Below are positions 36,674 through 39,600 of a stretch of DNA of 64,000 bases, in pieces. Each line of letters begins with the position of its first letter. The stretch's first letter is position 1. The stretch spans positions 7,111,081 through 7,175,080 of the forward strand of contig NC_049982.1 in NCBI RefSeq assembly GCF_000003815.2. Reading direction: 5' to 3'. The notes below the pieces were generated by a model. It was not told where the DNA came from, did no database searches, and worked only from the letters and a program-made list of their open reading frames with translations. The DNA comes from Branchiostoma floridae. Lineage: Eukaryota; Chordata; Leptocardii; Amphioxiformes; Branchiostomatidae. The position numbers and the translations under genes are program-made.

Positions 36674-39600
36674 GTGGGCAGAAGGGTTACTGGTCTAGAA
36701 ACGAAATAAAGCTGATTTGTTTTTTAGTGTTGTGTTACTGGTATACCTATCCAGCAACACTCTTTTATTAGTTTTAATAAAAAAAGCACAAATTAGCAGC
36801 TTTTGTTTTATGGTTTTGACATATATCTTTTAGTTTGAAGTAGATTCATACTAGAAATGCATTGACATTCATAGAAATGCAATGTTTGTAAAGGAAAGAT
36901 TCAAGTTGGGTTTTAAGGAATGAAAATGCCTGACACTTAGGTAAGGTTCTCCTTGGAAGGTTGAGAGTTTGCATGAAGAGTTTCCATCTCTGTGCTGTTA
37001 CTTTGATTATGTTGACTGGTTTAAACAGACTGTAAGGGCCCAAATTACAGCATATTTCATTACATCCAAATTTCAGCACAGGGGGCCCCTATGCTGAAAA
37101 GGCCTGGTGAGAACACTGTGTACTGTTTTGAATTCTTTTGGCTGTGGAAAGACAAAATGTGCAAAAAGAGGTAATGTAAAGATCCTAATAATGAGGGTTG
37201 AGTTTCCCTCTCTGTGCTGTTGCAGGGTGCAGCAGGGTCAGCTGGCCAAACAGCAGCAGCAGCTGGAGATCCAGCGCCAGCAACAGGAGCAGATCCAGCT
37301 GCAGCAACAACAGCTGCTGCAGCAGCAGCAGAAAATACACCTGCTGGAGCAGCAGGTAGGTGTCGTCTGCAGCCTTCATATTGTAACGGCAGTGTTACTT
37401 CTCAATGATTTACAAAGGTCTAAGTAAGGAGAAGTGTAAGTAGCAGTAGACAATACACCTGCTCGAACAGCAGGTAGGTGTCATTTGTATGATTGATTAA
37501 GGTGAAGTTTACAAGTTGCTATGGTCTTCTGTAAGGAGCAGCAGAAAATACACCTGCTGGAGCAACAGGTTGGTGATGTTTGTGCAATGTATATCACTAA
37601 CTAGAGTTCCACGAACACATACCTTTGCCAAATAAACCAGGTTTGTTATGTAGAATGATGTCTGTAGACATAAATGTGTTACTCATTACATTTTATTTTA
37701 TATGCCCGGAGTTGGTTCATAACATTTCGCCATTGCTTATACAAATTAGATCCCTATTTACATAATGATATTAAATTGTATCAAGCATCACTTAAGCTAT
37801 CAGCATACCAAAAATCATGATGATCCTTTCATCCCTTCTTGACTTATTCTCTTTCAAAGTTGGAAACTAAACCGGCTCCTGCAGTTCAAGAAAAGATGTT
37901 ACTGGACCCAAACATACACCTCTTAGTCTCTGCCATCTTTCTCAGTTCCATATGTGTCAAGTTTGAAAGTCCTATCACGGAATGCAGTGGATTTATCAAC
38001 TTTCTGCATTAATTATGCAAATTGTTGATTTATATAATTAGTATCTCATTATGTAAGTTTTTACTTAGGATATCTACATACCAAAAATCATGACGATCCG
38101 TCAACATGTTCATATTTTGCCATTAATTATGCAAATGAGATCATCATCTGCATAATTAATATGTATAAATATTTCTTTCCTTCTCAGCTACAAATGTGAC
38201 AAGTTTGAAAGTCCTATAAAGGAATGCAGTGGATTTACAAACTTTCCTCATTAATTATGCAAATTAGCTGTCGATTTGCATAATTTGAATTCCATCATGT
38301 AAGTCTTCCCATTGGCTATCTACATACCAAAAATCATGACGATCCGTCAACACGTTTATATATTCTCATTAATTATGCAAATGAGGTCGTCATTTGCATA
38401 ATTAATATGGATTGATTTTTCTCTCTTTCTCAGCTATATATGTGACAAGTTTGAAAGTCGTATTATGAAATGTAGCGGATTTATAAACTTTCCTCATTAA
38501 TTATGCAAATTAGTTGCTGATTTGCATAATTAGTATTCCATCATGTACATTGTTACTTGGGCTATCTACATACCAAAAATCGTAACGATCCATCAACACG
38601 TTCTCGAGTTATTCTGGTCCAAAGTTTGAAAGGAAATCGGCGACTGCAGTTCCAAACAAGCCGCTAGGGGGTCCAAACCTACCGCACTTACTCTCTGCCC
38701 CAAGGGCTATCCACCACTCAAATATCATAACCACAGCATGTCCAGAACACGAGATATCAAAAATTGAGGTTCTGCTGCAGTACCTTAGCAAGCCGCTAGG
38801 GGGCCCATTATCGAACTTGACCTTCATTTTCCCGACCCCTACCCACCTACCAAATATTATCTGGATCCATTCAAGGCTTCTCGAGTTATGCTGTTAACAG
38901 ACACACAGACACACACACAGACAGACTCACAAGCCTAAAACATAACCTTAGCCATTCTGGCAAAGGTAATTAAGGTGAAGTGTGCCAATGTCTATAGTCT
39001 TCTGTAAGCAGCAGCAACAGCAGAAAATACACCTACTTCAGCATCAGGTTTGTCTTCTGTAGTTTTAGGCCTATGTTTTCGGTCTGGTATTAAGATGAGA
39101 GGATATACACAGCAAATCAGGGCCAACAATACCTGGAAAAAACGTTGTAACGAGTTATTTGAAATTGTTTGAGACCAGTGAATGTGTATGTTTTGATGCT
39201 TTTTTGTATGTTTATGTCCTTGCCCTTTTCTTTTTAGATCCAGGAGCAGTGTAACAATGCTGCAGCTGGGCAGCCCTTCATGAGAATCATCCCAGTGTTC
39301 CCTCACGACCAGGCCACGGCGGCGGCTGCTGCAGCGGCGGCGGCTGCGTACTACCCGAGCATCCCTCGGACCCTGCCTTACGGCACGGCCGACCAGTACC
39401 CCGTGGCGCTGTCCCCTGCGGCGGCCGCCCGGCTCCAGATGGCCGGGATCCAGCCCAACCTGGCGCTGCACTCCCTCGGGCTTGACCCCCGTCTTCCCGT
39501 CACGGCGGGGTCCCTCCCGCTCACATCCGTTCCGCAGGTGCACAAGCCCGAGCCGTCCGAGAGCACGTCCCCCGGGCGGGCCAGCACCCCGCAGAGGAGC

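Follow-up and report, generated by a model that had tools for sequence, protein, structure and literature searches.

Do copies of an exon end that lie in the next intron serve as alternative mini-exons, or are they the relics of a duplication? This question is raised by the SoxD gene of the lancelet (amphioxus) Branchiostoma floridae, in a 64,000-nucleotide (nt) stretch of contig NC_049982.1 (positions 7,111,081 to 7,175,080, forward strand, assembly GCF_000003815.2; hereafter the window, numbered from its first letter). The last ~33 nt of the coiled-coil exon of SoxD are repeated three times in the following intron, and two of the copies have an open frame. A preliminary description of this sequence had left the choice between an evolving cassette of exons and a decaying relic. 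In our assessment the copies very probably form a decaying array of the type known in lancelets as a 'mirage', which lies in the SoxD intron and would be removed with it.

Copies of the coiled-coil exon end

The parent exon, delimited by its translation and by splice consensus, is 130 nt long (37226-37355, on the plus strand like all features of the gene and array below). It begins with one base followed by codons from 37227, exits in phase 0 with the donor CAG|GTAGGT, and joins in phase 0 the next SoxD exon (39238-39882, donor CAG|GTAGGA). Sequence search and BLAST confirmed three copies of its end in the intervening intron, at 37441-37473 (copy 1), 37536-37568 (copy 2) and 39009-39047 (copy 3). 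Copy 1 is identical to the exon end at 28/33 positions (5 mismatches) and has the same donor as the parent; it contains a stop, as previously described, although in the form of two in-frame TAG codons and not one, and so does not offer the open frame expected of a mini-exon. Copy 2 is 33 nt long, open, and the closest to the exon end (31/33 identical, 2 mismatches), with the donor CAG|GTTGGT. Copy 3 is also open, and six additional bases ahead of its 33-nt core (39015-39047; 28/33 identical, 5 mismatches) give it a length of 39 nt; its donor is CAG|GTTTGT. Between themselves the copies differ at 6 (1 vs 2), 6 (2 vs 3) and 9 (1 vs 3) of the 33 positions, and over all pairs of parent and copies the exon parts are identical at 24-31/33.

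A chance origin of the copies is ruled out by the count of a 23-mer core and by BLAST. With up to 3 mismatches the core was found three times in the window (parent, copy 2 and copy 3), against 0.00 expected from 100 window shuffles; copy 1 lies outside the reach of this search. BLAST of the parent against the copies gave E-values from 6e-6 to 8e-14, depending on the query. The observation that copies 2 and 3 are open, are multiples of three in length and follow the same acceptor-like sequence also held, with an identical GTCTTCTGTAAG directly before each. Taken alone, this 12-mer is not unusual at up to 2 mismatches (8 window matches against 5.49 expected), and both of its exact matches in the window stand ahead of these two copies.

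The identity of the gene as SoxD rests on its HMG box, on the match of a published primer, and on a likeness of its protein to vertebrate Sox5/6. That the coiled-coil exon is the second coding exon rests on the beginning of the upstream exon and on the same likeness; Pfam gave no family for the frame of this exon (37098-37424), nor for the four SoxD open reading frames (ORFs) outside the HMG box. The box itself is divided over the ORFs 40938-41150 and 41701-41889 (Pfam HMG_box). The primer from a report on amphioxus SoxD (PMC1950077) matches the window at 25/25 positions at 41019; as it is directed downstream from within the HMG box, the resulting cDNA should not include the coiled-coil exon. 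Searches of the literature on amphioxus or lancelet SoxD and on SoxD splicing listed no title or beginning of an abstract that concerns this intron.

Repeat unit, spacers and inserted sequence

The repeated item had been described as the exon end with its donor. These do repeat, in four units, but the real unit is ~95-118 bp long and includes the start of the intron. Self-BLAST aligns the exon end, donor and first intron bases of the parent (37321-37364) with 37439-37482 at 88.6% over 44 nt. The offsets between successive copies are 118 and 95 nt, and the third becomes ~105 nt when an insert, described below, is removed from the 1479-nt offset. Spacer 1 (37474-37535), the intron part of the unit, is homologous to the start of the parent intron and to spacer 2, which is bridged over the insert and has its right part at 38967-39008; both spacers terminate in GTCTTCTGTAAG. 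In a shuffle test with spacer segments that overlapped the next copy by 6 and 9 bases, spacer 1 and bridged spacer 2 aligned over their whole length with a score of 70, reached by 0/1000 shuffles, and the parent intron start scored 36 against spacer 1 (reached by 2/1000) and 30 against bridged spacer 2 (reached by 33/1000). Spacer homology thus covers the first three of the four units.

Homologous spacers argue for one tandem array rather than free-standing mini-exons. Since the spacers are homologous, the shared 'acceptor' TCTTCTGTAAG consists of the terminal bases of this unit, and independent mini-exons with a shared acceptor are ruled out on this ground. Copy 1 had been said to have no acceptor; this did not stand, as its upstream sequence aligns, with gaps, to that before copy 2, which is consistent with a decayed unit end. 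As far as the sequence can tell, the copies are one degenerate tandem array whose unit comprises exon end, donor and intron start, and which was later split by the insert.

This insert between copies 2 and 3 is a dispersed repeat at ~37593-38966, with edges that are approximate and taken from the best bridging. Part of it (38702-38947) matches 62883-63117 on the opposite strand at 75% over 248 columns in a self-BLAST of the window, and the related copy ends similarly, in ...GGCGAAGGTA. TRF finds 246-bp tandem units inside the insert, which also holds inverted ATTATGCAAAT-type motifs.

Lancelet haplotypes differ strongly, and copies such as these might result from an erroneous joining of haplotypes, in which case there would be no true array. 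One mirage does appear to be mis-assembled in the draft genome, according to the report on amphioxus globin genes (PMC3087553). However, the exon parts of the SoxD units differ at 2-9/33 positions and two of the copies are separated by an inserted repeat, neither of which resembles mis-joined alleles, and an assembly artefact is almost certainly not the explanation.

Splice signals and coding constraint

If copies 2 and 3 were alternative mini-exons, they would add 11 or 13 residues of QKIHLLEQQ type to the dimerisation coil of SoxD, perhaps in neurons. Both copies are in frame (phase 0 to phase 0), and both keep an AG and a GT. Neurons have special splicing factors that help small exons with weak sites. 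In amphioxus, SoxD expression is reported for the cerebral vesicle at an early larval stage (PMC1950077), which would suit such a use.

The splice signals argue against it. On rough, vertebrate-like matrices, not lancelet ones, the parent exon scores 5.15 for its acceptor and 6.10 for its donor, compared with 0.33 and 1.96 for copy 2, and -1.64 (-0.37 at the best alternative) and 1.69 for copy 3. The acceptors of copies 2 and 3 end in AAG and have a short pyrimidine tract; among the AG dinucleotides of the plus strand of the window they rank in the top 13.6% and 25.5% (17.2% at the best alternative for copy 3), against 1.3% for the parent. Their donors rank in the top 4-5% of GT dinucleotides on these rough matrices, against 0.2% for the parent. 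Open, in-frame AG...GT pairs of 24-60 nt on the plus strand that score at least as well number 12 for copy 2 and 25 for copy 3 (15 with its alternative acceptor), the copies included. For pairs of 24-200 nt in any frame the counts are 247, 531 and 359, respectively, whereas only 2 such pairs match the real exon, itself included. The signals of copies 2 and 3 are thus no better than the window background.

Copy 1 presents a different case. Its donor equals that of the parent in sequence and in score (6.10), while the best of four acceptors scored reaches -7.58. The array could therefore affect splicing without inclusion of any copy, if the true donor faced competition from that of copy 1, or from the whole series of donor-like sites, and the resulting stop-containing transcripts were destroyed, tuning the level of SoxD. 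Use of this donor would add 118 nt, and the parent frame reaches a stop before it (ORF 37098-37427). Against this, the true donor lies upstream and is equally strong, copy 1 gave no evidence of being under selection, and splicing is described as undisturbed in the literature on lancelet mirages (PMC3087553; PMC3902484). We regard such donor competition as very improbable.

The open frames of copies 2 and 3 were rejected as evidence for coding, as neutral drift would leave them open with a probability of 0.83 (copy 2, 2 changes) and 0.67 (copy 3, 5 changes). Slower substitution in the exon part than in the spacer was not seen in any of four comparisons (Fisher p 0.59 to 1.0), which are not independent, two of them sharing a spacer pair. 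Together with the weak acceptors and donors and with published mirages, which are described as leaving splicing undisturbed (PMC3087553; PMC3902484), this makes alternative mini-exons a very unlikely reading of copies 2 and 3. There is only a slight chance that splicing occasionally includes one of the open copies, or both, giving an alternative dimerisation coil that is longer by 11 residues, i.e. one hendecad, or by 13.

Several points weigh against a decaying mirage, including two limits of method already given, the extended spacer segments and the rough splice matrices. The sequence after copy 3 has no homology to the parent intron start or to the spacers (scores equalled by 573, 305 and 426 out of 1000 shuffles), which leaves the right edge of the array unmarked. 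The bridge over the insert was initially picked by eye; a later search of 55 x 50 edge positions, made without the extra bases, gave 37592/38967 as the best bridge, with near ties a few bases off. Changes in copies 2 and 3 fall on third codon positions in 5/7 cases (one-sided p = 0.045, uncorrected), and in 7/12 when copy 1 is added (p = 0.066), an enrichment that might reflect coding, now or in the past, and that favours the mini-exons. Gaps are found only in the spacers, which contain 25 and 12 gap columns and are 79-81% identical at ungapped positions; the 33-nt exon parts have none. By this measure the exon parts appear better kept if insertions and deletions are counted, although they were cut as fixed blocks and the six extra bases of copy 3 stand just outside. 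Neither the third-position changes nor the gap pattern decides the matter, because the sites are so few.

On the choice between cassette and relic, the relic half of the earlier proposal gains from the homologous spacers, from an 'acceptor' that is the end of a unit, from the weak signals and from frames that drift would often leave open. Little was found for the cassette, in whose favour stand only the third-position enrichment and the gap-free exon parts.

A decaying mirage, a minisatellite-like tandem array, would have arisen as follows. Tandem duplication would have acted on a segment that reaches from the CAG run of the exon end past the donor into the intron, probably via slippage or unequal exchange aided by the CAG-rich end, until the array had grown to the parent and three copies. 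The dispersed repeat would have entered between copies 2 and 3 afterwards, an order suggested by the bridged alignment. Lying in the intron, the copies would be spliced out with it and decay; copy 1 has lost its frame, and copies 2 and 3 have weakened donors and no strong acceptor. The real exon, with stronger sites at both ends, would be spliced straight to 39238. From the strength of the signals and the lancelet mirages on record, we infer that splicing runs directly from 37355 to 39238 and leaves the copies out.

Lancelet mirages and the surroundings of the array

Tandem duplications across exon-intron boundaries have been described in amphioxus globin genes and named mirages after the case of Adh3 (PMC3087553); two further works cited there deal, by their titles, with presenilin and with a microsomal retinol dehydrogenase. 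The units are given as 10-160 bp, the number of units in BflGb6 differs between its two haplotypes, and the report takes the data on Adh3 and the RT-PCR of globins as suggestive of undisturbed regular splicing. It also proposes mirage-type repeats as a possible source of new introns. Lancelet mirages are also described in troponin C and PGBD5 (PMC3902484).

The SoxD array, analysed in one haplotype, consists of tandem copies over an exon-intron boundary in a cephalochordate gene, with a unit within the reported 10-160 bp. It has the defining anatomy of a mirage, a kind already known, of which SoxD would be a further case. As in SoxD, the 3' boundary of an exon (exon 2) is duplicated in BflGb9. 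The SoxD unit of ~95-118 bp compares with 150-160 bp in BflGb6, 157 bp in BflGb9 and 10-72 bp in Adh3. The units of BflGb6 are 81-100% similar; those of SoxD share 24-31/33 positions in their exon parts and have gapped spacers (79-81% ungapped). Unlike the globin and Adh3 mirages as described, the SoxD array is gapped between units and split by an inserted repeat (PMC3087553), and because of this it may be older than those reported.

PGBD5 is close to SoxD in unit length. It has three imperfect repeats of 108 bp, the first of which abuts the 5' splice site, as well as 60-bp tandem repeats; in this other gene, however, the gene model annotated copies as an exon, an extra exon that is described as lacking expressed sequence tag (EST) or mRNA support (PMC3902484). 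A related model derives intron gain and exon birth from tandem duplication of AGGT segments (Rogers model, PMC4974935). The SoxD unit likewise contains CAG|GT and could seed new splice sites, but its copies lie inside an existing intron and do not amount to a demonstrated new intron or exon.

Duplication is also found at the other end of the coiled-coil exon. The pyrimidine tract of its acceptor (37200-37221) has a single duplicate 222 nt upstream (36978-36999, plus strand, 21/22 identical). In a scan of 7 SoxD boundaries (80-nt queries, 2500 nt on each side, E <= 0.01, with the HMG1 donor placed one base early), local duplicates were present at the two ends of this exon and at none of the other 5/7. 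The window as a whole holds 13 pairs of local direct duplications in 6 clusters at E 1e-6, among which the SoxD array was the one checked for spanning an exon boundary. Two further direct duplications look recent, 50045-50154 / 51132-51241 (96% over 110 nt) and 56993-57073 / 59218-59298 (99% over 81 nt); three ORFs that overlap the duplications at 50045-51241 and 56993-59298 had no Pfam match. Ecdysteroid-kinase-like (EcKL) and cytochrome P450 coding segments lie on the minus strand at 53171-54934 and 61155-61793 (Pfam).

With SoxD, a developmental transcription factor would join the lancelet genes with mirage arrays, and here the relative order of events can be proposed, the array first and the insertion of a repeat later. 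In-frame echoes of exons in lancelet introns need not be functional and are a potential trap for gene prediction. If one of the copies were ever used, it would show mirage arrays feeding new exons.
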